A stretch of DNA of 64,000 nucleotides from Nakamurella multipartita DSM 44233 (GTDB lineage Bacteria; Actinomycetota; Actinomycetes; Mycobacteriales; Nakamurellaceae), in contig NC_013235.1 of NCBI RefSeq assembly GCF_000024365.1, positions 3,472,001-3,536,000 of the forward strand. The letters run 5' to 3'. Positions 34,569 through 47,196 of the stretch are shown here, one piece after another. Every line of letters starts with the position of its first letter. Within the stretch, counting starts at the first letter, position 1. The translations under genes and the position numbers were made by a program. The notes under the pieces are model-generated. The model was not told the origin of the DNA. It searched no databases and saw only the letters and a list, made by a program, of their open reading frames with translations.

Positions 34569-35827
34569 CGGCTTTCTACCAATCGTGGGGTTTCGTCGGC
34601 GGCACGCCCGGCCAGATCAAGGGTTTCCAGGGGCGGGCCCCACCGGGGCGAGAACAGGGTGACCAGAACGAGCAGGGGAAGGGTGATGGTCAAGGTCGTC
34701 GATCCCGGCTGCAGGACCCACAAGGAGACCAGCAGCGTCACGGAGAAGGTGCGGCTCGGTCCCCCCCAATAACACACGAGCAGGAAGACGGCCAGGACGA
34801 ATCCGGCGATCAGCCCGTACTCGAAGAAGATCTTCAGCGGGGTCGGCACCAGCAGTCCCAGGACGTTGGTCGCCTCGACCGCTCGCTGGGAGGAGCCCGG
34901 CCCGTAGCCGATGAGCATCCCCAGCGGGTCGGTCGTCCATTGCGGGATCAGCACGTCGTAGGGCTGCAGGGCGCGCAACGAGGTCGACGTGTTCTCCCCC
35001 TGGAACTCGGTCGACCGCTCGAGCAGCATCGCTCCGAACGGCGTGAGCAGGCTGGTCCCGACCGCGGCCACCGCGATGACCGCGTAGCGCACCAGCAGCA
35101 CCCGGGAACGGTGCACCACCATCACCAACAGTCCGACCAGCACAATCACGATCCCGGATCCGGAGACGGTCGCGATGAGCCCGAGGATCAGGACCAGGAT
35201 CATCCACATCCGCGCCCGCACGAAGACCGCCGCCAGCAGACCGACGCCCAACTGGGCGGAGACGAACGAGGGCTCCAGGCCGATCCAGGCGTTGGCCTTG
35301 AAGATCGGCGATCCCCAGGTGATCGGGTAGCTGATCACGAAGCCCTCGAGCTGCAGGTTCGCCGGAACGAAGGAGGCCACGTAGTCCCGGTAGCCGACGC
35401 CCAGCAATTGCAGGCCGACCATGATCACCGCCAGCAGGGCCAGGCCCGAGCAGATCCAGCTCACGTACCGCAGCAGGCACAGGTAGGTGGCGGTGCTGCG
35501 GTCGACCGCACGCATGGTGAACGGAAGCCAGACCACCACGATCAGCATCCACGCGGTCAGGCTGATGACCGCCCGGTCGACCAGTTGCTGTTGCACCAGC
35601 ATGCCCAGCGCGCTGATCCCGGCGAACCCGAGCCACCAGCACAGCCGGGTGCGGTCGATCTCCAGGATCCCGGCCAACCTGGCCAGGACCATCCAGCCGA
35701 TCACCGCCGGCACCAGCATCGAGACATTGGTCAGGCCGGGCACGGACAAGCGTTGCAGGACAACCAGAAGCCCGAACAGGACAGCGATCCAGGCAGCGAC
35801 CCGGCGCTGCGAGGATGTCGCGTTCAC
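34565..35827 (-). CDS. O-antigen/exopolysaccharide polymerase (Wzy-like)
   Basis: A 420-residue protein with some ten to twelve transmembrane segments and a long periplasmic-type loop near residues 280-330, the usual Wzy/O-antigen ligase layout. No conserved catalytic motif is recognised, as is normal for this fast-evolving family. GTG at 35827 (VNATSSQRRVAAW) overlaps the Wzz-like stop (GTGA); the longer open frame upstream is that gene out of frame. It probably joins repeat units outside the membrane. Confidence 0.75.
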   Translation of the reverse strand: MNATSSQRRVAAWIAVLFGLLVVLQRLSVPGLTNVSMLVPAVIGWMVLARLAGILEIDRTRLCWWLGFAGISALGMLVQQQLVDRAVISLTAWMLIVVVWLPFTMRAVDRSTATYLCLLRYVSWICSGLALLAVIMVGLQLLGVGYRDYVASFVPANLQLEGFVISYPITWGSPIFKANAWIGLEPSFVSAQLGVGLLAAVFVRARMWMILVLILGLIATVSGSGIVIVLVGLLVMVVHRSRVLLVRYAVIAVAAVGTSLLTPFGAMLLERSTEFQGENTSTSLRALQPYDVLIPQWTTDPLGMLIGYGPGSSQRAVEATNVLGLLVPTPLKIFFEYGLIAGFVLAVFLLVCYWGGPSRTFSVTLLVSLWVLQPGSTTLTITLPLLVLVTLFSPRWGPPLETLDLAGRAADETPRLVESR

Positions 35828-37128
35828 CTGGCCAGAACCAGGCGAGGAGCGGCCCGATCGAACGCTTCCATGGCTGCGGCCACCGCGGCGACCGTGGTCC
35901 GGCTGCGCCGGGCGACGACCACGGCCACGAAGTCGGACTGTCCTTCGAGCAGGTGTGCCGCCTCGGAATCGGCGTCGACGACTGCGATCATCATGTCCGC
36001 ATTCATGATCCCGGGGACGTCGCGACGCGCGTCGCGGCCCAGCGTGGCCAGGGCCATGGCCCGGTCGTCGACCAGCCCGAGGTTGCGGACCAGGTGCCCG
36101 TGCGCGCCGGCGAAGGCGCTCAGGTCGTCGGCCAGCGCGAGCCCGGCCTCCCGTGCGCCGGCCGGGCACACGACGGCGATGCATTCACGACCGGACTCCA
36201 GCACCTCCCCGACCAGCCGGGCGGCTTCCCCCGTGCGGCTGATCCGGTAGCCGGGGAACAACGCCCGCAGGGACCGGACACTGGAAATGCGCATGCCCCG
36301 GACGCCGAGCAGGACGGCGGCCAGACCGCCCAGCAGCAGGCCGGCGACGAGGCCGACCACCGAACCCATCAGCGGGGTGATCCCGGCGTGCGAGGCCTGC
36401 GCGGCCGGATCGATCACCACGACCGATCCGGAGCGGGCGGTGATGGCATCCTGGCGATTGGCCAGCGACTGCCCCACCTGGGCTTCCCGGGCGTCCTCGG
36501 CCGCCGGCGAGGGCAGGCCCTCCGCGTTCAGCAGGTCGGACGAATTCGCGTGCGCCTGCTGCAGTTGGGCCTGGATCTGTGATTCGTTGAGGCTGACGAC
36601 GGCCCCGGCGACCGCGTTGGCCGCGGCGATCGCGCCGGCCTCGGTGGATGCGTGGGCCGACACCTCGACCAGGTTGCTGTCCTGCTCCCAACCGGCCGCG
36701 ATCTGGCCGGTGAGCGACCCGGCCGGCAGGCCGGCCTGCCGCTCGGCCTCGCTGACCACGTCGGCCGACAGGACCCGTCGAGCCAGCGTCTGGCCGGTCT
36801 GCTTGACCACGAGGCTGTCCAGGCTCGCAGTGCTGAACTGCAGCATCGACTGGGCCTGGTAGCCCGAGTTGCCGGTCAGCAGGAACCCTCCCAACGCGCC
36901 GAGCAGGGCGGCGATGGCCAGCAGCAACGGCCGGGCCATGATCAAGCCGAACGGCGGGAGTTCGCCGGTTCCGGTCGGCCGCTCGGACGGAAATCCCTGG
37001 GCCTGGAACGCCGCCGACTCCGCTGCGCGATGGCGACGCCGGCTCGGCGTCGGCGGCGATTCGGTCAGAACATCACGCCCGGGCTGCATCCGAACCGCTC
37101 GCCGGCTCCGCTGGTCACTGGTAGTCAT
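35824..37128 (-). CDS. Wzz/chain-length determinant protein with a degenerate BY-kinase-like tail
   Basis: A 434-residue polysaccharide co-polymerase. One helix lies near residues 66-84 (LLLAIAALLGALGGFLL) and a second near 235-260 (GITPLMGSVVGLVAGLLLGG), flanking a coiled periplasmic region rich in Gln/Ala. The C-terminal 150 residues resemble a CpsD-like kinase fold (CIAVVCPAGAREAGLALADD, then LVRNLGLVDD) but CPAGAREAG replaces the GEGKT Walker A and there is no tyrosine cluster, so phosphorylation is unlikely. I choose ATG 37128; a GTG at 37137 adds three residues. It overlaps the upstream glycosyltransferase by 14 bases. Confidence 0.78.
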   Translation of the reverse strand: MTTSDQRSRRAVRMQPGRDVLTESPPTPSRRRHRAAESAAFQAQGFPSERPTGTGELPPFGLIMARPLLLAIAALLGALGGFLLTGNSGYQAQSMLQFSTASLDSLVVKQTGQTLARRVLSADVVSEAERQAGLPAGSLTGQIAAGWEQDSNLVEVSAHASTEAGAIAAANAVAGAVVSLNESQIQAQLQQAHANSSDLLNAEGLPSPAAEDAREAQVGQSLANRQDAITARSGSVVVIDPAAQASHAGITPLMGSVVGLVAGLLLGGLAAVLLGVRGMRISSVRSLRALFPGYRISRTGEAARLVGEVLESGRECIAVVCPAGAREAGLALADDLSAFAGAHGHLVRNLGLVDDRAMALATLGRDARRDVPGIMNADMMIAVVDADSEAAHLLEGQSDFVAVVVARRSRTTVAAVAAAMEAFDRAAPRLVLAR

Positions 37129-38359
37129 GTTCCTCACTCATTCTTGGCGACCGGGCCTGTTCGAAGGCCCGGGTGATCATGGCGATGTTGCGGGTCGGAT
37201 CGGTCAGCCGTCGGATCGTCGCCCGACCGTTCGCGGCCATCGCCGCAGCGGATTCGCGGTCGGCCAGCAGCCGGATGACCGCCTGCGCGAATGCCCCCGG
37301 ATCGTCGTGGACCTCGAGGTCGACGCCCGAGCGCAGGTCGAGCCCGCGGGTGGCCAGCGACGTGCTCACCGTCGGGCGTCCGGCCTGCAGATACTCGACG
37401 AGTTTGATGTTGACCCCGGACCCGGCCACCGCGGGGTTGACCGTGACCCAGGCCCGCTCCAGGTACGGCTCGACCGAGGGGACGTCGGCCTGGATCTCGC
37501 TGCCCGGGACCGTCCCCAGCCGTTCCCGCAGCGCCGCGGACGGCCGCGCGCCGACGACCTCGAACACCGCATCGGGCACTGCGGCCCGAACCTGGGGCCA
37601 GACCCGGTCGACGAACCAGTCGAGGCCGACGAGGTTGGTCACCACGTCCAACGCGCCCAGGAAGACCACTCGCGGCCGGTCCCCGCGACCGGCCTGCCGG
37701 GGCAATGCACCGGCCCGGTCCGCCCCGCCGCGGCCGAACACGAAGGGCGGCACGTGCATCACCTGCCGGGCCCCCGCGGCCCGCCGGCGTTGCGCGTCCT
37801 CCGCGGCGATGTCGGCGAACGCGGTGACCAGGTCGGACCGGTCGTGCCGGGCCTCGTCTCGCGCGATCCGGGCACTCTCCCAGCGCATCACCAGCCGCCG
37901 GGGACCGTGCGAGCCCTCGACCAGGCTGCGGTGGTAGTCGGACTCGCGATTGTGCTGTCGGACGACCATCGGCAGCCCCAGGTCGCGCGCCAACCGGTCC
38001 CCGATCCCGTGCGACTTGTAGGACAGCACAAAGATTCCCGTGGCGTCCGGCACGAGCGACCGGAGCCGGTTCGCCAGGCCCGGTGGGGTCGGCCGCGAGG
38101 CCACGACAAACGGGTGCCGCGGATGCAGCAGCATCAACGGCGAGCGGCGCCGGTGCACCGGAAGCACACAGATGTCGCCGACCAGCTCACGGTAGGCCCG
38201 CAGGTCGAGCTCCTGCTTGGCCGGGATGACCAGGGCGCGCAGGGCATTCGCGGCCAGCGTGGCCTCGACCAGGCCCTGCTGTTCGCGCTCGCCACCGTCT
38301 CGGGCCGGAAGGAACTCCGAATCCGCGACGACGATCCATCGGTGGGCTTCGGTCGACAT
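37115..38359 (-). CDS. Family 1/4-type (GT-B) glycosyltransferase
   Basis: A 414-residue two-domain transferase. The donor-binding half carries RVVFLGALDVVTNLVGLDWF (about 240) and GSGVNIKLVEYLQAGRPTVS (about 340), where the Glu of the E-x7-E region sits. The N-terminal half includes QHNRESDYHRSL. ATG 38359 (MSTEAHRWIVVAD) shares one base with the rfbF stop; an upstream ATG at 38401 lies within rfbF. The acceptor and donor are unknown. Confidence 0.85.
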   Translation of the reverse strand: MSTEAHRWIVVADSEFLPARDGGEREQQGLVEATLAANALRALVIPAKQELDLRAYRELVGDICVLPVHRRRSPLMLLHPRHPFVVASRPTPPGLANRLRSLVPDATGIFVLSYKSHGIGDRLARDLGLPMVVRQHNRESDYHRSLVEGSHGPRRLVMRWESARIARDEARHDRSDLVTAFADIAAEDAQRRRAAGARQVMHVPPFVFGRGGADRAGALPRQAGRGDRPRVVFLGALDVVTNLVGLDWFVDRVWPQVRAAVPDAVFEVVGARPSAALRERLGTVPGSEIQADVPSVEPYLERAWVTVNPAVAGSGVNIKLVEYLQAGRPTVSTSLATRGLDLRSGVDLEVHDDPGAFAQAVIRLLADRESAAAMAANGRATIRRLTDPTRNIAMITRAFEQARSPRMSEEHDYQ

Positions 38360-39213
38360 CAGTCCTTCCAGACCTTCCACGGGGCGTCGCCGGAGTCCCA
38401 CCGGCGGTTGAGATCGGTCCAGTCGCGGAAGGTGTCCATGCCGGCCCAGAAGCCCTCGTGGCCGAAGATCCCGAGCTGACCATCGCGGGCCACCCGCTGC
38501 AGCGGCGCCTGCTCGAGCAGCAGGTCGGGAGTGTCGTCCAGGTACCGCTGGGCGAACTCGCGCTGGAACAGGAAGAACCCGCCGCTGACCCAGCCGGTGG
38601 CCAGGGTCGGCTTCTCGTTGAACTCCACCACCTGGGTGTTCGCGTCGTTGACCAGGATCTCGCCGAAGCGGCTGGTGGGGTGGACGCCGGTCACGGTGGC
38701 CAGCAGCCCCGACTCACGATGCCGGGCCAGCTGCGCGGTCAGATTGACATCGCCGATGCCGTCGCCGTAGGTCAACGCGAAGACATCGGTGTCGATGTAC
38801 TTCAGGGCCCGGCGGATCCGCCCACCGGTGCCGGTCTCCAGGCCCGTCTCGGCGAAGGTGATCTCCCAGCCTTCGTCACGGGAGTCGGTCAGAAAGCGCG
38901 GCTGGTGATCGCCGGCGAGGTCGAGGCTGAAGTCGTTGACCTGCTCGCGCAGATCCAAGAAGTAGCGCTTGATCAGTTCGCTCTTGTAGCCCAGGCACAA
39001 CACGAAGCGGCGGAAGCCATGCGCCTCATAGGTTTTCATGATGTGCCAGAGGATCGGCTTGCCACCGATGTCGACCAGCGGCTTGGGCAGTTTCTCGCTG
39101 GCTTCACGGAGCCGGGTGCCCATCCCGCCGCACAGGATGACCACCGGGATGTCCGCGACATCCGGGTTGATCTTCAGTTCTTCGTCGGCCATCGGCGAGG
39201 CGAATGTCGTCAT
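38359..39213 (-). CDS. rfbF: Glucose-1-phosphate cytidylyltransferase
   Basis: A 284-residue nucleotidyltransferase that makes CDP-glucose. VVILCGGMGTRLREASEKLP is the nucleotide loop, KPLVDIGGKPILWHIMKTY and ALTYGDGIGDVNL (metal site) follow, and FWAGMDTFRDWTDLN near the end is typical of RfbF/DdhA rather than the thymidylyl or uridylyl enzymes. It implies that the polymer contains a CDP-activated sugar, yet no CDP-glucose 4,6-dehydratase (RfbG) is in the window. It is cotranscribed with the downstream transferase (TGATG). Confidence 0.93.
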   Translation of the reverse strand: MTTFASPMADEELKINPDVADIPVVILCGGMGTRLREASEKLPKPLVDIGGKPILWHIMKTYEAHGFRRFVLCLGYKSELIKRYFLDLREQVNDFSLDLAGDHQPRFLTDSRDEGWEITFAETGLETGTGGRIRRALKYIDTDVFALTYGDGIGDVNLTAQLARHRESGLLATVTGVHPTSRFGEILVNDANTQVVEFNEKPTLATGWVSGGFFLFQREFAQRYLDDTPDLLLEQAPLQRVARDGQLGIFGHEGFWAGMDTFRDWTDLNRRWDSGDAPWKVWKD

Positions 39214-39234
39214 CGGTCGTTTCCCTTCGTCGGT

Positions 39235-40278
39235 TCAGTGATGCAGCAGGCTGCGGTTGATCTGGTCCAGACCGGCGACGCCGGTCAGCGCCATGGCGTG
39301 GCGCAGGTCGTCGGTCATGGCGCTGAGCGTGTCGGCGACCGCCTGGCAGCCGCCCGCGGCCAGCGCCCACAGCACCGGTCGCCCGATGAGCACCCCGTGG
39401 GCGCCCAGGGCGAGGGCGGTCAGAACGTCTAGGCCGCAGGAGATTCCGCCGTCGACGTAGACCGGGGCGCGTCCGGCCACCGCGTCGACGACGTCGCCCA
39501 GGGCGTGCGCGCTGGGCACCGCGCGATCCAGCTGCCGGCCGCCGTGATTGGACACGATCACCCCGGCGGCACCGGCGCGCAGGCACTCGTCCGCAGCGTC
39601 GCCGCGCAGCACGCCCTTGACCAGCACCGGCAGGCCGAACTCCCGGCGCAGCCAGTCGATCGTCTCCAGACCGATCGACGGATCCTGGGCGGCGGCCGCG
39701 CGCCCGTCGACCCCGGGGGCCAGGTGGGGGGCGATGTTGACCAGGAAGTGGTCGTCGGGCAACGGGATGCGGGTGCCACGAACCTGCCGTTTGCGTCCGA
39801 CGTACGGGGTGTCGCCGGTGAGCACCAGCGCGCGGGCGCCCGCGGTCACCGCATCGGCCACCACGCGCCGGGTGAGTTCGCGGTCACGCATCACGTAGAC
39901 CTGGAACCACCATGGCCCGGTGGCGGCGGCCGCCACCTCGGCGATCGGCAACGACGCCCGGGTCGAGAGCACGAACAGCGATCCGGCCTGGCCGGCGGCG
40001 GCGGCGGTGGCCCGTTCACCGTCGGGATGGGCCAGTCGCTGGAACGCGGACGGAGCAATGGCGATCGGCGTGGCGACCGGCACACCCAGCGCGGTCGAGG
40101 CGGTGTCCACGGCGCTGACGTCCCGCAACGGGAACGGCCGGAAGCGGTAGTCGGCCCACGCCGCCCCGGACTCGGCCCGGGTGAGCTGGTCGCCGGAACC
40201 CGCGTCGTAGTAGTCGAAGACCTCGGGAGTCAGGACCGAGCGCGCCTTCTCGGCCTGCTCTTCCAGTACGGCCAGCAT
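39235..40278 (-). CDS. FMN-dependent alpha-hydroxy-acid oxidase/dehydrogenase
   Basis: A 347-residue TIM-barrel flavoenzyme related to lactate and glycolate oxidases. IAPSAFQRLAHPDGE, LVLTGDTPYVGRKR, VLVKGVLRGDAADE (FMN lysine) and the signature VSNHGGRQLD (catalytic His) are all present, and YVDGGISCGLDVLTALALGA is the phosphate-binding end. It starts one base after the flippase stop and is followed by rfbF. A role in polysaccharide assembly is not established for this family; it might oxidise a glyceryl or lactyl substituent, or simply be embedded in the locus. Confidence 0.88.
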   Translation of the reverse strand: MLAVLEEQAEKARSVLTPEVFDYYDAGSGDQLTRAESGAAWADYRFRPFPLRDVSAVDTASTALGVPVATPIAIAPSAFQRLAHPDGERATAAAAGQAGSLFVLSTRASLPIAEVAAAATGPWWFQVYVMRDRELTRRVVADAVTAGARALVLTGDTPYVGRKRQVRGTRIPLPDDHFLVNIAPHLAPGVDGRAAAAQDPSIGLETIDWLRREFGLPVLVKGVLRGDAADECLRAGAAGVIVSNHGGRQLDRAVPSAHALGDVVDAVAGRAPVYVDGGISCGLDVLTALALGAHGVLIGRPVLWALAAGGCQAVADTLSAMTDDLRHAMALTGVAGLDQINRSLLHH

Positions 40279-40279
40279 G

Positions 40280-41566
40280 TCAGTCCTCCACCGTGAGCCG
40301 GGTCAGAGCGCGCCGCAGTTGCAGGAACCAGATCGGCAGCAGCGCGGCCTCGACCAGCGCGAGCGTCCAGGCCGCCCCGACGGCGTCCCAGAGCGGGATG
40401 GCCACGGCCAGACCGACCACGAGCATCGGCGCCCGCAGCAGGTTCACCCGCAGGGTGAGCTTGGCCAGCCCCATCCCGTACAGGACGGCGACCGGACCGG
40501 TCGCCGCCGCCGCCACCACCGCGAGCAGGCACAGCGGCAGCAGCACCATCTGGGCGCCGCTCCACGAATCGCCGAGCAGTTGCTGCCCCCAGGCGGACGG
40601 GAGGAGCAGCAGGACAGAGGCGTAGAGCACCCCGGCCAGGCCCAGGACGGACGAGACCACCAGCGCGAAGCGCATCCGACCGGCCGGCGAGAAGGCCACC
40701 CGCCGAGCGACTTCGGGCACGGCAAACATGAACGCGGCCGTGCCCAGGATGTTCATCGGGCCGAGCAGGACCTGACCGGCCCGCAGCGCACCCACGCCGG
40801 CGGCGGTGCCCCACACCCCGACCGCCAGGATCCCCCACTGCGCCAATCCCTGACTCAGGACGTATTCGACCAGCAGGTACCCGGTGAGCTTGCGCTGCCC
40901 GACCACCCAGCGGACCGACCCCCGCAGCCGGGGAACCGTGTCCAGCAGATATAGGCCGTACAGGGCCGACATCAGCCCGGTGGCACCCCAGATCAGCACC
41001 GGCAACCAGACATCGGCCCGGTCGCTCTGGGCGAAGATCAGGCCGACGAGCATCGCCACCGTCCACAGGGCGTCGATCGCCGTCGCCCGGGCCGGCTGGC
41101 CGGCGGCGAAGAACGCCATGCGGCAGATGTCCTGCACCATCAGGCCGGGCAGCACGACGCCGAGCGCGACCAACGCCTGACCGGTCTGCCCACCGAGCAG
41201 CAAACCGGTTGCCGCGGTGAGGATTCCGGCCACCACGCCGAGCGCGATGGTCGCCCCGAGAGCGGAGCGGACGGCGGACCGGAACTGCCGGCGACCCTCG
41301 GCCGCGAAGGTGATCTGCAGCGGCTGTCCCACCGCCGCCCGGTTGACCGCCACCACGATCGAATAGACCAGGAACGCCACCGAGAAGGCGCCGAACGCCT
41401 CGGCGTCGACGGCGCGAGCGACCAGGACCGCGAGCAGGAAGTTCGACGCGGCCGACAAACCCTGATCGACCACGGTCCAACTGACCCGACCGGCGACCCG
41501 ACCGGGCACCGGCAGCCGTCGACGAACCGTCCGATCGTCGTCGACCCGGTCATTGCTCAGGACCAT
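40280..41566 (-). CDS. Lipopolysaccharide-repeat flippase (Wzx/MATE-like)
   Basis: A 428-residue polytopic membrane protein with about twelve helices. The start, VSWTVVDQGLSAASNFLLAV followed by VARAVDAEAFGAFSVAF, is the usual first-helix pattern of polysaccharide exporters of the MOP superfamily. It probably flips undecaprenyl-linked repeat units. It begins four bases after the glycosyltransferase stop. Confidence 0.82.
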   Translation of the reverse strand: MVLSNDRVDDDRTVRRRLPVPGRVAGRVSWTVVDQGLSAASNFLLAVLVARAVDAEAFGAFSVAFLVYSIVVAVNRAAVGQPLQITFAAEGRRQFRSAVRSALGATIALGVVAGILTAATGLLLGGQTGQALVALGVVLPGLMVQDICRMAFFAAGQPARATAIDALWTVAMLVGLIFAQSDRADVWLPVLIWGATGLMSALYGLYLLDTVPRLRGSVRWVVGQRKLTGYLLVEYVLSQGLAQWGILAVGVWGTAAGVGALRAGQVLLGPMNILGTAAFMFAVPEVARRVAFSPAGRMRFALVVSSVLGLAGVLYASVLLLLPSAWGQQLLGDSWSGAQMVLLPLCLLAVVAAAATGPVAVLYGMGLAKLTLRVNLLRAPMLVVGLAVAIPLWDAVGAAWTLALVEAALLPIWFLQLRRALTRLTVED

Positions 41567-41570
41567 GCGG

Positions 41571-42515
41571 CTATCCGGCCCGGTAGGGGGATCGTTGGGT
41601 CGCGATACCCCGCACGTACGCCCAGTGCTGACGCACGGTGGACCAGCGACCGCGTCCGGCCCCGATCAGGATGCGCGGCGCCATGCCGGCGGCGAAGGCC
41701 GCGCGCATCACCCGGGCGGCCGCCGGGCGGTGATGATCATGCAGATAGGCGGCCATCGACGCGCCTCGCTGCTGCGGCATGGCGGTGCCACCGCCCCCCG
41801 AACTGGCCGTGGCGTGGGGCACCAGCAGATCGGTGCGCAGCACCATGCGCCGGCCCGACCGCCGGACGGCCCGACCGAAGGCCATGTCCTCGTTGTAGAC
41901 GAAGTAGCGCTCGTCGAAGCCGCCGAGGTCGAGGAATTCGCGCCGGCGAACGGCCAGGCAGGCGCCCGAGATCCACTCCAGGTCGACGTCCTGCCCTGTC
42001 CTCGGCTTGGCGAAGACGCCGGCCGTCGGCCACCGCCGATGCAGACCCAGGGCGTGTACCCACGCGCGCCGCGGGGTGGGGTCCCAGCCACCGACGCCCA
42101 GCTCGATGGAGCCGTCCGGGCCGGTGGTCGCCGCGCCGACCGCGATGAGCTCGGGCTCGTCGCGCAGGTGCCCGACCAGCGCCCGCCAGACGTCCACGGT
42201 CGGCCGGCTGTCCGGATTGGCGAAGACGAGGAACTCGGCCGTGCTGGTGCGGGCACCCAGGTTGGCGGCCCGGGCGAAGCCGCCGTTGCGGCCGTCCAGC
42301 CAGCGGCCGCGGGGCAGCGCCCGGACCACGTCCGGCACCCCGTCCGCGCCCGATGCGTTGTCCACCACCACGACCGGGCCGGTGGCTCCGACGTGCGTCA
42401 GCAGGCCGGTGAGCTGCTCCCGGCTGTGATAGGTCACCAGCACGACCTCGTAGCTGGTGTCGGCGACCGGCACCGGCCGCTCGCCGGCGACGACCGAGCG
42501 CTCGGTGACGCTCAT
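41571..42515 (-). CDS. Family 2 glycosyltransferase (rhamnosyltransferase-like)
   Basis: A 314-residue GT-A enzyme. VLVTYHSREQL, VVVVDNASGADG, FLVFANPDSRP (NPD in place of DxD), LEWISGACLAVRRREFLDLG and FVYNEDMAFGRAVRRSG are the family 2 landmarks in order. ATG 42515 overlaps the SAF-oxidoreductase stop (ATGA). The sugar transferred is unknown; similarity is to rhamnosyltransferases in general. Confidence 0.88.
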   Translation of the reverse strand: MSVTERSVVAGERPVPVADTSYEVVLVTYHSREQLTGLLTHVGATGPVVVVDNASGADGVPDVVRALPRGRWLDGRNGGFARAANLGARTSTAEFLVFANPDSRPTVDVWRALVGHLRDEPELIAVGAATTGPDGSIELGVGGWDPTPRRAWVHALGLHRRWPTAGVFAKPRTGQDVDLEWISGACLAVRRREFLDLGGFDERYFVYNEDMAFGRAVRRSGRRMVLRTDLLVPHATASSGGGGTAMPQQRGASMAAYLHDHHRPAAARVMRAAFAAGMAPRILIGAGRGRWSTVRQHWAYVRGIATQRSPYRAG

Positions 42516-43798
42516 CCGAACACCGCCGTCTGCTCGTCGCGCAGCTTGTCGATCAACCGGCCCTGCGGCACGGCGACGTCGTCGTAGGTCAATGTGGCGT
42601 CCTTGGCCACCGGACGCACCACGGTGCACCCGGCCGCGACGCCCATCGGCAGCAGCCGCTGGGCAGCCGTCACATCGGCCCGCTCCGCCTCGCCGTAGGT
42701 CAGATAGCCGCCCAGGTCGTCGATCACCTGGCCCGGGGACAGGTCGGTCTTGGCGGTCGCGACCACCTCGACCATGGGCCGACCGGCGGCCGCGATGGCC
42801 GCGTCGCCGAAGTCGACCGCCCGGGCCAGGCTGGCCGGCACCTCGAAGTGGCACAGGTGATACGGCGTGTAGAAGCTGTAGAGCGGTCCGGCGCCCAGCT
42901 TGTACAGGTTCAGGTAGTGGGCCTGGACCGGATCGTCGATGGTGGCCAGGCAAAAGACCCCGGGGCCGGGCTTGGCGCCGACGACGTAGTCGACGACTCC
43001 ACCCAGCTCCCGCAGCTGCTCGACGTCATAGGCACCGGTCAGCTCATCGACGTGGCCGCGGTGATCGGCTCCGCGCATGCCCCGTCGCTCGACCGTCATC
43101 CCGGTCGCGTTGGCCACGATGGCCTGTTCGAACGAGACCTTGGTGCCATCGGCAAAGCTGGTGACCATGTGCGGGTCCTGGCCCCACTGGGCCGCGAACC
43201 CGGCCTGCGTGGTCGGGTTGCGGAACCGATCCTGCAGACCCTTGATGTTGCCCAGCACCAGCGGGGTCAGCCCCCGGCCGGTGACGAACCGGAACAGGTT
43301 GATCTCCACGCCCGGCTGGTCGCCGTCGACGCCGCTGAACACCAGACCGGCGGCGGCCGCGCGGTGGGCCAGCAGTGGACCCACGGTGCCGTCCAGCTCG
43401 GCGTTCATCGTCACCACCGGCTTGCCGGCCTCGAACGCGGCCAGGGTGATCGCCGCGCCGAACTCGACCGCGCCGGTCACGTCGCAGATCACGTCGATGC
43501 CGTCGGCCGCGCAGACGGCCATCGGGTCGTCGGTCACCACCGGCCGACCGGCCGCCACCGCGGCACTGACCCCGGCCGCCGAATCGACCACGTCGACGTC
43601 GTCGATACCGGCCTCGCGGTAGGCCCGCTGGGCCCCGGCCAGGTTGCGGTTGGAGACTGCGGCCAGGGTCATGCCGGGCGTGTACCGGATGATCTGCCGG
43701 GCTACTCCACGACCCATGAAGCCGGCCCCGATCATGCCGACCCGGATCGGTTCGCCGCGCTCCTGACGTCGACCCAGGGCGGTGTCGACCAGGATCAT
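42512..43798 (-). CDS. NAD(P)-dependent oxidoreductase with C-terminal SAF domain
   Basis: A 428-residue protein with an N-terminal Rossmann fold (IRVGMIGAGFMGRGVARQI, about 18-36) related to homoserine dehydrogenases, a middle domain (GVDGDQPGVEINLFRFV) and a C-terminal SAF domain (TDLSPGQVIDDLGGYLTYG, PMGVAAGCTVVRPVAKD; about 355-410). Related SAF proteins recur beside RfbC-like epimerases, SDR enzymes and cytidylyltransferases in polysaccharide clusters, to my recollection, and have no assigned reaction. Overlaps on both sides (ATGA) tie it to this module. The likely substrate is a nucleotide sugar or its aldehyde intermediate. Confidence 0.82.
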   Translation of the reverse strand: MILVDTALGRRQERGEPIRVGMIGAGFMGRGVARQIIRYTPGMTLAAVSNRNLAGAQRAYREAGIDDVDVVDSAAGVSAAVAAGRPVVTDDPMAVCAADGIDVICDVTGAVEFGAAITLAAFEAGKPVVTMNAELDGTVGPLLAHRAAAAGLVFSGVDGDQPGVEINLFRFVTGRGLTPLVLGNIKGLQDRFRNPTTQAGFAAQWGQDPHMVTSFADGTKVSFEQAIVANATGMTVERRGMRGADHRGHVDELTGAYDVEQLRELGGVVDYVVGAKPGPGVFCLATIDDPVQAHYLNLYKLGAGPLYSFYTPYHLCHFEVPASLARAVDFGDAAIAAAGRPMVEVVATAKTDLSPGQVIDDLGGYLTYGEAERADVTAAQRLLPMGVAAGCTVVRPVAKDATLTYDDVAVPQGRLIDKLRDEQTAVFG

Positions 43799-44340
43799 GC
43801 CGGCGCTCCGACCGGCTCGAGCAGCGGCCAGCTCGCGTCCTTGTCGCTGATGGCGGAGACCGGTAGCGGCCAGGACAGCCCGAGCGCCGGATCGTCGTAG
43901 CGAAGACCGCGTTCCTGACCCGGCGTATAGCGTTCGCTGACCTGGTAGAGCACTTCGGTGTTGTCGACCAAGGTCTGGAATCCGTGCGCGAACATCGGCG
44001 GGACATAGAACGAACGACGATTAGCCGCGCTCAATTCCACCGCGACATGCTGCCGATAGGTCGGCGAGCCGGGACGCAGGTCCACGATGATGTCGACGAT
44101 GGCGCCGGAGATGCAGCGAACCAGCTTGGCCTCGGTGGCCGGCTCGAGCTGAAAGTGCATGCCGCGCAACGTGCCGGCCCGGTGGTTGTAGGACAGGTTG
44201 CACTGCACCACTTCCGGCAGCAGGCCGTGGGCCGCGAACTCGTCCTGGCAGAAGCTGCGGGCGAAGAACCCGCGGTCGTCGCGACGCTCCTCCAGCTCCA
44301 CGATGGCCACCCCGTCGATCGGCGTGTCGATGAACTTCAT
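43795..44340 (-). CDS. dTDP-4-dehydrorhamnose 3,5-epimerase-like protein (RfbC family)
   Basis: A 181-residue cupin epimerase. DDRGFFARSFCQDEFAAHGL, QCNLSYNHRAGTLRGMHFQ (catalytic His), CISGAIVDIIVDLRPGSPTY and FYVPPMFAHGFQTL are family motifs. Its neighbours carry CDP- rather than dTDP-sugar genes, and no rfbA or rfbB is present, so the true substrate may be a CDP-4-keto sugar. It overlaps both neighbours by ATGA. Confidence 0.88.
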   Translation of the reverse strand: MKFIDTPIDGVAIVELEERRDDRGFFARSFCQDEFAAHGLLPEVVQCNLSYNHRAGTLRGMHFQLEPATEAKLVRCISGAIVDIIVDLRPGSPTYRQHVAVELSAANRRSFYVPPMFAHGFQTLVDNTEVLYQVSERYTPGQERGLRYDDPALGLSWPLPVSAISDKDASWPLLEPVGAPA

Positions 44341-45365
44341 CGGGCCGCCGTCCAGAGAAGTTCGGCGTCAATCTGTTTCGTGCGCAGCAGGTACTCGAGC
44401 TGCTTGAGCCGGGTGTGCCCGCGACCGGTGAAGGTTTCGGCATCCAGGTCGATCGAGGAGAAGATCCGCGCCAGTTGCTCGGCCCCGCGGGAGGCATTCC
44501 AGTCGCACTCGAAGCCGGGGAGCTGGGCGTGGATCTTGTCGAAATTGACCCGGTAGCTCCGGTTGTCCGGTCCGGGCGGGCCGAACTCGGTCACGCATCC
44601 GGGGAACGCGGCGGCCACCTGCTCGGCGATCTCACGCACCTGGTAGTTCTGCTCGTTGCTGCCGACGTTGAAAACCTCGTTGTGCACGACGTCTCGCGGC
44701 GCCTCCAACGCGCAGCGAATCGCCTTGCCGATGTCCATGGCGTGCACCAGCGGCCGCCACGGAGTTCCGTCCGAGGTCATGGAGATCCGGCCGGTGGTGT
44801 GGGCCAACCCGGCCAGGTTGTTCAGCACGATGTCGAAGCGCATCCTCGGGGATGCGCCGAACGCGGTGGCGTTGCGCATGAAAGTGGGCGAAAAGGCATC
44901 ATCCGCCAGCGCGGAGACGTCTCGTTCCACCAATGCCTTGCAGTCGGCGTACGCCGTCTGGGGGTTGATCGGCGAGCTCTCGTCGACGACGCCGTCCGCC
45001 ACCCCATAGACACTGCACGAGGACATGTGGATGAACCGTTGTACCCCGGCCGATTTCGCCAGCGTGGCGAGCCGGAGCGTGCCCTTGTGATTGACGTCGT
45101 AGGTCACGTCCCCGAGCAGGTCGCCGAGCGGATCATTCGACAGCTCCGCCATGTGCACGATCGCGTCGAATCCGACAAGGTCCTCGGCCTGCACACTCCG
45201 GACATCTTTATCAAGAGTCAAGACCGTGCGGTCGGTGCCCCGATACAGCCATCCGGACTTGAAGAATCCGGTGTCCAGCCCGACCACGTCATGGCCACGC
45301 CGGGCCAGTTCCGGAGCCAGCAGGCACCCGAGGTACCCCTCGGTACCGGTCACCAAGATGCGCAT
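44337..45365 (-). CDS. NAD-dependent epimerase/dehydratase (SDR)
   Basis: A 342-residue extended SDR. MRILVTGTEGYLGCLLAPEL carries the GxxGxxG NAD loop. SSCSVYG provides the Ser, and PQTAYADCKALVE the YxxxK. RPLVHAMDIGKAI is a typical sugar-nucleotide enzyme segment. ATG 45365 has a GGGGAGGATC ribosome site. It is first in the minus-strand module with the RfbC-like and SAF genes, and probably acts on the same nucleotide sugar. Confidence 0.87.
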   Translation of the reverse strand: MRILVTGTEGYLGCLLAPELARRGHDVVGLDTGFFKSGWLYRGTDRTVLTLDKDVRSVQAEDLVGFDAIVHMAELSNDPLGDLLGDVTYDVNHKGTLRLATLAKSAGVQRFIHMSSCSVYGVADGVVDESSPINPQTAYADCKALVERDVSALADDAFSPTFMRNATAFGASPRMRFDIVLNNLAGLAHTTGRISMTSDGTPWRPLVHAMDIGKAIRCALEAPRDVVHNEVFNVGSNEQNYQVREIAEQVAAAFPGCVTEFGPPGPDNRSYRVNFDKIHAQLPGFECDWNASRGAEQLARIFSSIDLDAETFTGRGHTRLKQLEYLLRTKQIDAELLWTAAR

Positions 45366-45663: not shown

Positions 45664-47196
45664 GTGATCGAAGGGCATTCGCCGTCAACCCGGTCCGAGC
45701 ACGGGGTTGCCGCCAGTGCCGTGCGTGCGCGCGGCGAGTCGCCGACGGCCGGGGAATCTGCTGGTCCGACGCCTTCGTGGACGGGTCGTCCCTTGCCGAC
45801 CGAGGCTCTGGCCCCCTACGCCGATCAGGTGGCCCGACGCCGGCTAAACATTCCGGTGGCACTTCTGGGACAGGGGATCTGGCCGCTGGTCCTGGCCGCC
45901 GACTTATTCGCTCTGATCGGCGCCAAGGCGATGCTCGGGCAGCTCACGGTGCGCTCGCTGGTGACCTTCACGATCTGCGTGGTGATCTTCGCGCTGGCCG
46001 GCCTGTACCGGTCCCGACTGACCCTGTCGGCCCTGGATGATCTGCCCCGGGTCGCCCTGGGCATGCTGGGGACTGTAGGACTGTCGACAATTGCTTTGAG
46101 CCTGCTTGATCGCCCGTCCGATCAGCAGCACCAGGAATCCCAATTGCTCTTCGCCGTGCTGACTGTGGCGATTGTCACGATCTTGCGCTCACTGGCCTAC
46201 CTGGCCATCCGCTCCTTGCGTCGGCACGGAATCGCCCACCGCACAGTTGTTGTCGGTGCCGGGCTGGTCGGCCAGTCGGTCGCCCGCACGCTGCACGAAC
46301 ATCCGGAATACGGATTGGCACCGGTCGGATTCGTCGATTCCGACCCGCTGAGCCAGCTGGGCGACTACGAGTTCCCGATCCTCGGGCACACCGACACGCT
46401 GCCGAAAGTGTTGCAGCTGACGGGCGTTCGCACGGTGATCATTGCCTTCTCGACCGCGCCGGAGGAGCAGATGATCGACGTGATCCGGCAGTGCGACCGG
46501 CTCAACTGCGAGATCTTCATCCTGCCAAGACTCTTCGAGGTGCACCATGTCAGCACCGACATGGACTACATCTGGGGCGTTCCACTCACCCGTTTGCGCC
46601 GTGGCGCCTATCGAGCCAGCTCCTGGCCGATCAAACGGATGATGGATATTGCCGCATCCGGTCTTGCGCTGGCACTCTTGTCACCGGTGATGGCCCTGAT
46701 CGCGCTGGCCGTGCGGATCGAGGGCGGTCCCGGGGTCCTGTTCAAGCAGATTCGGGTGGGGGTGGACGGCCGGCATTTCGAGTTGCTCAAATTCCGCTCG
46801 CTCCGGCCGGTCGACGAGACCGAGTCGGCCACCAACTGGAACATCTCGCACGACGACCGGCTCGGGCCGGTGGGTCGGATCCTGCGCACATCGAGCCTGG
46901 ACGAACTGCCCCAGTTGCTCAACATCCTGCGCGGCGACATGAGCATCGTGGGTCCACGACCCGAGCGCCCGCACTTCGTCGATCAGTTCCGGCAGACCTA
47001 CCCCCGGTACTGGGCCCGGCATCGCGTGCCCTGCGGCCTGACCGGGTGGGCGCAGATCCACGGGCTGCGCGGGGACACCTCAATCGCCGACCGTGCCCGC
47101 TTCGACAACTATTACGTCGAGAACTGGTCGCTCTGGCTGGACGTGAAGATCATCATCCGGACCGCCGGGGCCGTCTTCACCCGGGCCGGATCCTGA
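45664..47196 (+). CDS. Exopolysaccharide polyprenyl glycosylphosphotransferase (initiating enzyme)
   Basis: A 510-residue membrane enzyme that loads the first sugar phosphate on undecaprenyl phosphate. Four or five N-terminal helices (about 65-185), a Rossmann-like CoA-binding domain (VVVGAGLVGQSVARTLHEHP, about 200) and the C-terminal catalytic domain follow. That last domain has KRMMDIAASGLALALLSPVM, FKQIRVGVDGRHFELLKFRS, RTSSLDELPQLLNILRGDMS and VGPRPERPHFV. GTG at 45664 starts the reading; it is divergent from the sugar-nucleotide module. The stop is three bases from the convergent pseudouridine synthase. Confidence 0.92.
   Translation: MIEGHSPSTRSEHGVAASAVRARGESPTAGESAGPTPSWTGRPLPTEALAPYADQVARRRLNIPVALLGQGIWPLVLAADLFALIGAKAMLGQLTVRSLVTFTICVVIFALAGLYRSRLTLSALDDLPRVALGMLGTVGLSTIALSLLDRPSDQQHQESQLLFAVLTVAIVTILRSLAYLAIRSLRRHGIAHRTVVVGAGLVGQSVARTLHEHPEYGLAPVGFVDSDPLSQLGDYEFPILGHTDTLPKVLQLTGVRTVIIAFSTAPEEQMIDVIRQCDRLNCEIFILPRLFEVHHVSTDMDYIWGVPLTRLRRGAYRASSWPIKRMMDIAASGLALALLSPVMALIALAVRIEGGPGVLFKQIRVGVDGRHFELLKFRSLRPVDETESATNWNISHDDRLGPVGRILRTSSLDELPQLLNILRGDMSIVGPRPERPHFVDQFRQTYPRYWARHRVPCGLTGWAQIHGLRGDTSIADRARFDNYYVENWSLWLDVKIIIRTAGAVFTRAGS

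Follow-up and report, generated by a model that had tools for sequence, protein, structure and literature searches.

The window analyzed here, a 64,000-nucleotide stretch of Nakamurella multipartita DSM 44233 (NC_013235.1, positions 3,472,001 to 3,536,000), carries a run of polysaccharide genes whose putative product is a branched CDP-sugar and which includes a gene for a relative of the reductoisomerase DXR-II. All four open reading frames (ORFs) named in the initial annotation were present on the minus strand, together with the ATGA overlaps described there. They encode a short-chain dehydrogenase/reductase (SDR; 44337-45365; PF01370) that starts at an ATG behind GGAGG and is predicted to be a Cj1427-type dehydrogenase acting on C4 of CDP-glucose; an RmlC-type cupin (43795-44340; PF00908/TIGR01221, 172.8 bits against a cut-off of 155.75), a predicted 3,5-epimerase; a protein with Rossmann, PF21135 DRL_cat and SAF domains (42512-43798), here called DLO1 (DXR-II-like oxidoreductase) and predicted to be a ring-contracting NADPH reductoisomerase; and an RfbF-like glucose-1-phosphate cytidylyltransferase (38359-39213; PF00483). 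RfbF scored 270.9 bits against TIGR02623, under the cut-off of 300.25, and its top PDB match by far was the glucose-1-phosphate cytidylyltransferase 1tzf (E value, 1.2e−62). Overlaps of 4 bases (ATGA) join the SDR to the cupin gene and the cupin to the DLO1 gene. From the SDR gene down to an ORF at 35824-37137, all genes read in one direction and were spaced by 1 to 21 bases or overlapped, which places rfbF in the same apparent transcription unit as the SDR gene. The initial annotation had proposed a single CDP-sugar pathway with a branched product. This idea fits the sequence data presented below, but its gene set was incomplete, as a predicted flavin mononucleotide (FMN)-dependent 2-hydroxyacid oxidase encoded in the same run (39235-40278; PF01070, 352.8 bits) had been overlooked. 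The closest PDB chains of this protein were lactate, glycolate and hydroxyacid oxidases, and it is predicted to re-oxidize a 2-hydroxyacid made by the SDR.

The reported absence of CDP-glucose 4,6-dehydratase (RfbG) was borne out, with none of seven matches in the whole Nakamurella genome exceeding the family cut-off. On this ground, a 3,6-dideoxyhexose of the RfbG/RfbH type was rejected as the product of the window, RfbH not having been searched for genome-wide. A role of the cupin in dTDP-rhamnose synthesis was also considered and is unlikely, because the other RmlC-like gene of the host lies outside the window (C1:1564796-1565323) and falls below the family cut-off, and because no RmlA or RmlB equivalog above cut-off was present among the nine proteins of the operon region (RmlA, RmlB and RmlD were not searched for genome-wide).

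The Rossmann-plus-SAF protein had been described as having no assigned reaction, and its kinship to DXR-II had gone unnoticed. DLO1 matched PF21135 with 171.3 bits and Brucella DXR-II (PDB 3upy/3upl) over nearly its full length at 35% identity (E value, 2.5e−64). Its AlphaFold model (pLDDT, 89.6) aligned with DXR-II at a Z score of 45.5, against no more than 17.4 for DXR-I, dehydrogenases and others, and both its three domains and its 3upl-type fold are those of DXR-II. The DXR-II family has been split into DXR-II and two uncharacterized groups, DLO1 and DLO2 (PMC3847144). Table 1 of that study places Nakamurella under DLO1, along with Coxiella burnetii (five strains) and Streptomyces griseus NBRC 13350, in 36 rows by our count, drawn from 1489 proteomes (results section; the abstract gives 1498). 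The window protein carries the hydrophobic residue of this group at position 229 (Val) and lies outside the DXR-II clade. A tree was built from 88 of 121 rows, with long branches present and the cassette label assigned partly by similarity. In it, a branch with SH-aLRT support of 99 separated 59 cassette DLO1 rows from three DXR-II-type references, and four StrU proteins grouped on the cassette side. A 12-sequence alignment showed DXR-II residues Thr229, Arg320 and Glu174 replaced by Val221, Thr311 and Asn167 in the window protein, with Tyr322 kept; Lys186 matched DXR-II Lys191 in this alignment or Lys193 in a pairwise one. Judged by sequence, the SAF protein belongs to DLO1, a family of DXR-II relatives; DXR-II, the relative that has been characterized, acts on a ketose by rearrangement and reduction. 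Its fold and domains, equal to those of Brucella DXR-II, would also suit a DXR-II of isoprenoid synthesis, or another isoprenoid-linked enzyme, that stands in a polysaccharide operon by chance. We regard this as very improbable: alongside its single PF21135 gene the genome has a canonical DXR-I, signature residues are missing, the clade is separate, the epimerase gene that travels with DLO1 would be superfluous for isoprenoid synthesis, and a DXR mutant was not complemented by any of four DLO proteins tested (PMC3847144). A true DXR-II was rejected on the first three of these grounds.

Four aligned DLO1 proteins served as the query for a scan of named genomes, which gave at least 395 relatives. 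Gene-set counts refer to the best 80 of these (61 to 69% identity); where a partner was absent the count is a lower bound, as some contigs were short. An RmlC cupin gene was located within 1.8 kb of the DLO1 gene in all 80 loci, within 1.5 kb in 78 and within 200 bases in 52. RfbF genes were found near DLO1 in 63 loci, SDR genes also in 63 (55 at ≥45% identity and 8 lower) and flavin 2-hydroxyacid oxidase genes in 52. Around 26 more remote SAF/DRL relatives from genomes of the actinobacterial phylum, used as a control, neither cupin nor SDR was found within the roughly 1.5 kb or less of sequence on each side; one of these loci (L014) matched GT2 and, over a short length, RfbF. An RfbF-like gene scoring at least 273 bits (window RfbF, 270.9) was present in all 16 genomes picked for follow-up as loci without partners or of interest, most of them with no rfbF gene near DLO1, and among them fall 11 of the 12 loci that lacked SDR, RfbG and oxidase alike. 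Recurrence in other genomes had been the initial annotation's own test of its proposal, and the genes did recur; its suggestion of a sugar unique to this polymer did not survive, as cassette loci span six phyla. Hosts of the best 80 include actinobacteria, cyanobacteria, alphaproteobacteria and Chloroflexota, and in Deinococcus taeanensis and D. aetherius the annotated order is rfbF-lhgO-SDR-rfbC-SAF in five adjoining genes. The gene set is a real, widespread nucleotide-sugar cassette, for which no published description was found within the literature searched.

Some loci departed from this arrangement. Five (L047, L051, L075, L078 and L081) had the cupin-DLO1 pair with no rfbF or SDR gene within ∼10 kb, and the L047 pair adjoins non-polysaccharide genes. 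On a large plasmid of Rhizobium sp. 007 (L137; an unannotated record), DLO1 (∼61% identity) and a cupin were present with no rfbF or SDR gene found within 10 kb. In two cyanobacterial loci, genes for a PhyH-like dioxygenase and a sugar C-methyltransferase lay between SDR and cupin (L080:7031-7879 and L098:3632-4897), perhaps for later tailoring of the sugar.

For the oxidation step, the closest PDB sequence to the window SDR was Cj1427 (6vo6; phmmer E value, 8.6e−21), and a profile search gave 9.2e−46 against 5e−28 for the runner-up. Foldseek ranks 1 to 4 were all Cj1427 (6vo8/6vo6), whereas VIA-align did not separate Cj1427 (Z score, 29.5) from GalE-type enzymes (30.5). Tyr139 and Lys143 were invariant across 23 aligned SDRs. 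The window SDR shares the motif R.AT..G.SPR.R.D with Cj1427, its closest solved relative, and SPRxR was kept in 59 of the 63 cassette SDR matches. Cj1427 oxidizes C4 of GDP-heptose with tightly bound NADH and passes the hydride to 2-oxoglutarate, giving L-2-hydroxyglutarate (PMC10680097). The oxidase gene was found by tblastn near 52 of the 55 close SDRs and at none of the 25 other loci; the three close-SDR loci with no oxidase in reach were L041, L069 and L110. In cyanobacterial loci, the gene between rfbF and SDR encodes an L-2-hydroxyglutarate oxidase type; that of L061 scored 618 bits with NF008726, whose cut-off is 299. The same type was identified in Kineosporia (L045), Auraticoccus (L077) and an Anaerolineae bin (L079) with 507 to 536 bits, and the Gemmobacter oxidase fell below the cut-off (188 bits). 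The window and Cellulomonas marina have an unrelated FMN 2-hydroxyacid oxidase nearby instead. Seven alphaproteobacterial loci (L040, L044, L084, L092, L093, L097 and L138) encode a remoter SDR (36 to 38% identity) with SPRxR kept, and no 2-hydroxyacid oxidase was found nearby.

The cupin scored above the TIGR01221 cut-off and, as in RmlC 3,5-epimerases, has His62 and Tyr132, which we take to be the catalytic pair from the RmlC numbering. In five of the 80 loci, all cyanobacterial (L068, L073, L086, L089 and L116), and in Persicobacter, a CDP-glucose 4,6-dehydratase stands in place of SDR and oxidase; that of L086 scored 523 bits (cut-off, 278). SDR and oxidase were not found at these loci, of which L068 has little upstream sequence. 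The exchange of SDR for dehydratase amounted to three changes on the tree. Because it is a CDP-glucose 4,6-dehydratase that replaces the SDR, cupin and DLO1 would act on a CDP-4-keto sugar. The cassette can accordingly be read as having two types, type A with the SDR and a product that would keep the 6-hydroxyl and type B with the dehydratase and a product that would lose it. Between streptose and dihydrohydroxystreptose this hydroxyl is likewise a point of difference, the other being how far the branch is oxidized (PMC9095892). One Anaerolineae bin locus (L079) encodes SDR, L-2-hydroxyglutarate oxidase and CDP-glucose 4,6-dehydratase together, and possibly makes both product types.

Taken together, these observations support, with moderate confidence, a pathway by which the cassette supplies the exopolysaccharide with a branched, CDP-linked pentose whose ring DLO1 has contracted. 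RfbF would form CDP-glucose. The Cj1427-like SDR would oxidize C4 with the 6-hydroxyl kept and pass the hydride to a 2-oxoacid, and the resulting 2-hydroxyacid would be reverted by the flavin oxidase (FMN type in the window, L-2-hydroxyglutarate oxidase elsewhere). C3 and C5 would then be epimerized by the RmlC cupin. Family assignments, gene order, co-occurrence and the swaps were read from sequence, and each reaction, nucleotide and product is predicted from them; the steps up to the epimerized CDP-4-keto sugar are likely. DLO1 would next cleave C2-C3 by a retro-aldol reaction and close C2 to C4. This would contract the ring and leave C3 outside it as an aldehyde, which the enzyme would reduce with NADPH to CH2OH in a DXR-type reaction on a nucleotide sugar. 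DXR itself works by retro-aldol/aldol steps and NADPH reduction (PMC8551875), and UDP-apiose synthase contracts its sugar ring by C2-C3 retro-aldol cleavage, re-closure and reduction of the aldehyde; the authors of that work propose the like for dihydrostreptose (PMC5324594). The product would most likely be CDP-dihydrohydroxystreptose, that is, 3-C-hydroxymethyl-L-lyxofuranose; in type B, with the dehydratase at the second step, it would be CDP-dihydrostreptose. A path proposed for dihydrohydroxystreptose starts with the C4 oxidation of TDP-glucose, continues with an epimerase and ends with a streptose-synthase-like enzyme that contracts the ring; the enzymes of the first and last steps were stated to await identification, and double epimerase activity was demonstrated for the epimerase, CBU1838 (PMC9095892). 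A C4-oxidizing enzyme and a 3,5-epimerase, as such a sugar calls for, are predicted to be encoded together across the cassette family. A further-reaching claim is that DLO1 represents a second type of sugar ring contractase, outside the SDRs, and applies the DXR rearrangement to CDP- or dTDP-4-keto-L-hexoses; we hold it to be evenly balanced.

The same four families are found in streptomycin-type clusters. In a survey of 392 Streptomyces genomes, DLO1 and StrH occurred in the identical five, a coincidence with a chance of 1.3e−11 for two random sets of five. In S. griseocarneus JCM 4580 (L041), the DLO1 gene lies inside such a cluster. This cluster also encodes a homologue of StrB1, which scored 720 bits against inosamine-phosphate amidinotransferase 1bwd, a kinase resembling APH(6) that stayed below its cut-off (310.9 bits; cut-off, 325), proteins of the RmlA, RmlB, RmlC and RmlD types, ABC exporters and three aminotransferases of the DegT family. 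A second RmlC, along with RfbF and SDR, was present only in the clusters of genomes G410 and G1150, one of them S. griseocarneus, a producer of hydroxystreptomycin; they were not found in the clusters of G843, G1161 and G1059 over the 55 to 79 kb read, and were not searched for genome-wide. Streptomycin and hydroxystreptomycin differ by the 5′-hydroxyl of streptose. In the G1150 cluster, StrE and StrL are broken, the main match of StrE covering 69 of 329 residues and StrL falling into three pieces, and full-length matches were obtained for DLO1, SDR, RfbF and the two epimerase genes. In this streptomycin-type cluster (L157; G1150:C89:48273-49688), StrD and StrM likewise match at full length, and the dTDP-glucose 4,6-dehydratase and RmlD-like genes are fragmentary.

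These clusters bear on two other readings of DLO1. It could act like RmlD, as a simple NADPH-dependent 4-ketoreductase, with CDP-L-mannose or another CDP-L-hexose as the product that feeds N-methyl-L-glucosamine in Streptomyces. The set mirrors RmlA-B-C-D logic with DLO1 in the RmlD slot, 3,5-epimerization and 4-reduction would yield an L-manno sugar by stereochemistry, the remoter fold relatives of DLO1 include plain dehydrogenases, and StrQ, StrP, StrX and StrU have reportedly been proposed for N-methyl-L-glucosamine. However, StrP, StrQ and StrX were missing from the stretches read of three of the five clusters, which should still need that sugar, the nearest solved relative of DLO1 is a reductoisomerase, and type B would be redundant, since its 6-deoxy case is already served by the dTDP-L-rhamnose route. 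A ketoreductase, the main rival to ring contraction, is possible but doubtful; CDP-L-mannose would have the same mass as CDP-dihydrohydroxystreptose. N-methyl-L-glucosamine as the purpose of the cassette was itself weakened as a candidate, with three streptomycin-type clusters having no SDR, RfbF or second RmlC in the stretch read. Alternatively, another enzyme might contract the ring and DLO1 act later, for example on the hydroxymethyl or aldehyde branch (dihydrostreptose to streptose), as its presence in all five clusters, with or without the cassette, would suggest for a common late step. This is improbable: the shown stretches of the two Deinococcus loci have no annotated RmlD-like gene, none was seen among the nine window proteins scanned, and the constant proximity of the epimerase gene in the best 80 loci points to nucleotide-sugar formation.

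Several observations weigh against ring contraction by DLO1. No known activity exists for any DLO1, and of the DXR-II residues, Thr229, Arg320 and one of Lys191/Lys193 are lost in the window protein. StrL, the RmlD-type protein, is whole beside DLO1 in four of the five Streptomyces clusters, and G1150 has an intact RmlB/RmlD pair elsewhere that resembles the non-cluster copies of other genomes, so that this pair could rescue the broken genes. Published sugar compositions of the heterocyst envelope polysaccharide (HEP) are not known to include a streptose-type sugar, an objection that falls away if such a sugar was lost in hydrolysis. The link between oxidase and SDR came down to three supported independent pairs (median P, 0.25), with L011 scored as oxidase negative on a flank of only 1.5 kb. 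The cupin residue that might mark the substrate is Met in Coxiella CBU1838, Phe in the window and Tyr in most cassettes, type B too; 95 alignments, including five of StrM and a few genes counted twice, gave Tyr in 73, Phe in 21 and Ile in 1 (Phe in all five StrM; five Tyr and two Phe in type B), and Phe/Met was dropped as a marker of a 6-hydroxyl substrate on this mixed result. For dihydrohydroxystreptose, the ring contractase is expected to be a paralogue of RmlD rather than a DXR-like protein (PMC9095892). The Coxiella DLO1 gene (NP_820815.1 in C. burnetii RSA 493) was not located, 398 Pseudomonadota genomes giving only the centre genome and one other (E value, 1e−90), and no title or abstract start in the literature searched on Coxiella genes and ring contraction named a DXR-like contractase. 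Finally, in five of the 80 loci the cupin-DLO1 pair sits in an ispG stretch, in Pseudonocardia (L043, L048, L067 and L071) and a Pseudonocardiales bin (L057), which may be chance or a hint of the isoprenoid role discussed above. DXR-I was seen in the L043 and L067 stretches and not in those of L048, L057 and L071, and as the epimerase gene is the constant partner of DLO1, an isoprenoid role is disfavored at these loci also. In such Pseudonocardia-type genomes, map, rseP and DXR-I are further neighbors where the sequence reaches them.

The run has further genes. A GT2 glycosyltransferase gene (41571-42515; PF00535), whose start was set at an ATG overlapping the DLO1 stop, would with its start at 42515 add a third ATGA overlap. 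It is followed by a gene for a probable polysaccharide flippase (40280-41566), read from the sequence and having no Pfam or NCBIfam match, and, beyond oxidase and rfbF, by a group 1 glycosyltransferase gene (37115-38401; PF13692) and the ORF at 35824-37137, all on the minus strand. Divergent from and adjoining the operon is an undecaprenyl-phosphate sugar transferase gene (45664-47196; TIGR03025, 404 bits), whose product probably starts the repeat unit.

If ring contraction by DLO1 is correct, the rearrangement chemistry of isoprenoid DXR has been re-used in sugar metabolism and an orphan family gains a function. The synthase still lacking for the Coxiella O-antigen and the enzyme that really contracts the ring in streptomycin would both be DLO1, and the cassette would supply candidates for the two activities termed the key challenge in dihydrohydroxystreptose synthesis (PMC9095892). 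Streptose-type sugars, each said to be confined to one organism, would be polysaccharide building blocks in hundreds of bacteria, and an unreported branched sugar is predicted for polymers that include the heterocyst envelope, the protector of nitrogen fixation.

Among known systems, the window protein has the domain set and fold of DXR-II/DRL proteins and the DLO1 membership listed in PMC3847144, but differs from DXR-II in its altered named residues, the DXR-I of its genome and its nucleotide-sugar gene neighbors. The Campylobacter GDP-heptose pathway (Cj1427, Cj1430 and Cj1428) likewise combines a 2-oxoglutarate-coupled C4 dehydrogenase, an RmlC-like epimerase and an NADPH enzyme (PMC10680097). 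Its substrate is GDP-heptose rather than the CDP-glucose predicted here, its last enzyme is a C4-reductase, and the passages of that report describing it mention no 2-hydroxyacid oxidase gene. The HEP island of Anabaena 7120 (alr2825-alr2831) encodes a cytidylyltransferase, the hypothetical protein alr2826, an epimerase/dehydratase, rfbC and an NAD(P) oxidoreductase (PMC4390870). Compared through this published annotation, it matches the cyanobacterial cassette loci in gene order and annotation, except that two or so additional genes separate SDR and rfbC; by its position, alr2826 would be the L-2-hydroxyglutarate oxidase. The StrP/Q/U/X genes of (hydroxy)streptomycin clusters bring together the same four families as the window cassette, but in clusters that make an antibiotic instead of a polysaccharide and have dTDP-streptose-type genes alongside. 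StrD-E-M-L and Coxiella CBU1834/CBU1838 also share its logic of nucleotidylyltransferase, C4 oxidation with the 6-hydroxyl lost or kept, RmlC-type 3,5-epimerase and, as proposed in PMC9095892, reductive ring contraction as the last step, whereas the window has CDP in place of dTDP, a Cj1427-type oxidase and a DXR-II-like protein where an RmlD paralogue was expected.

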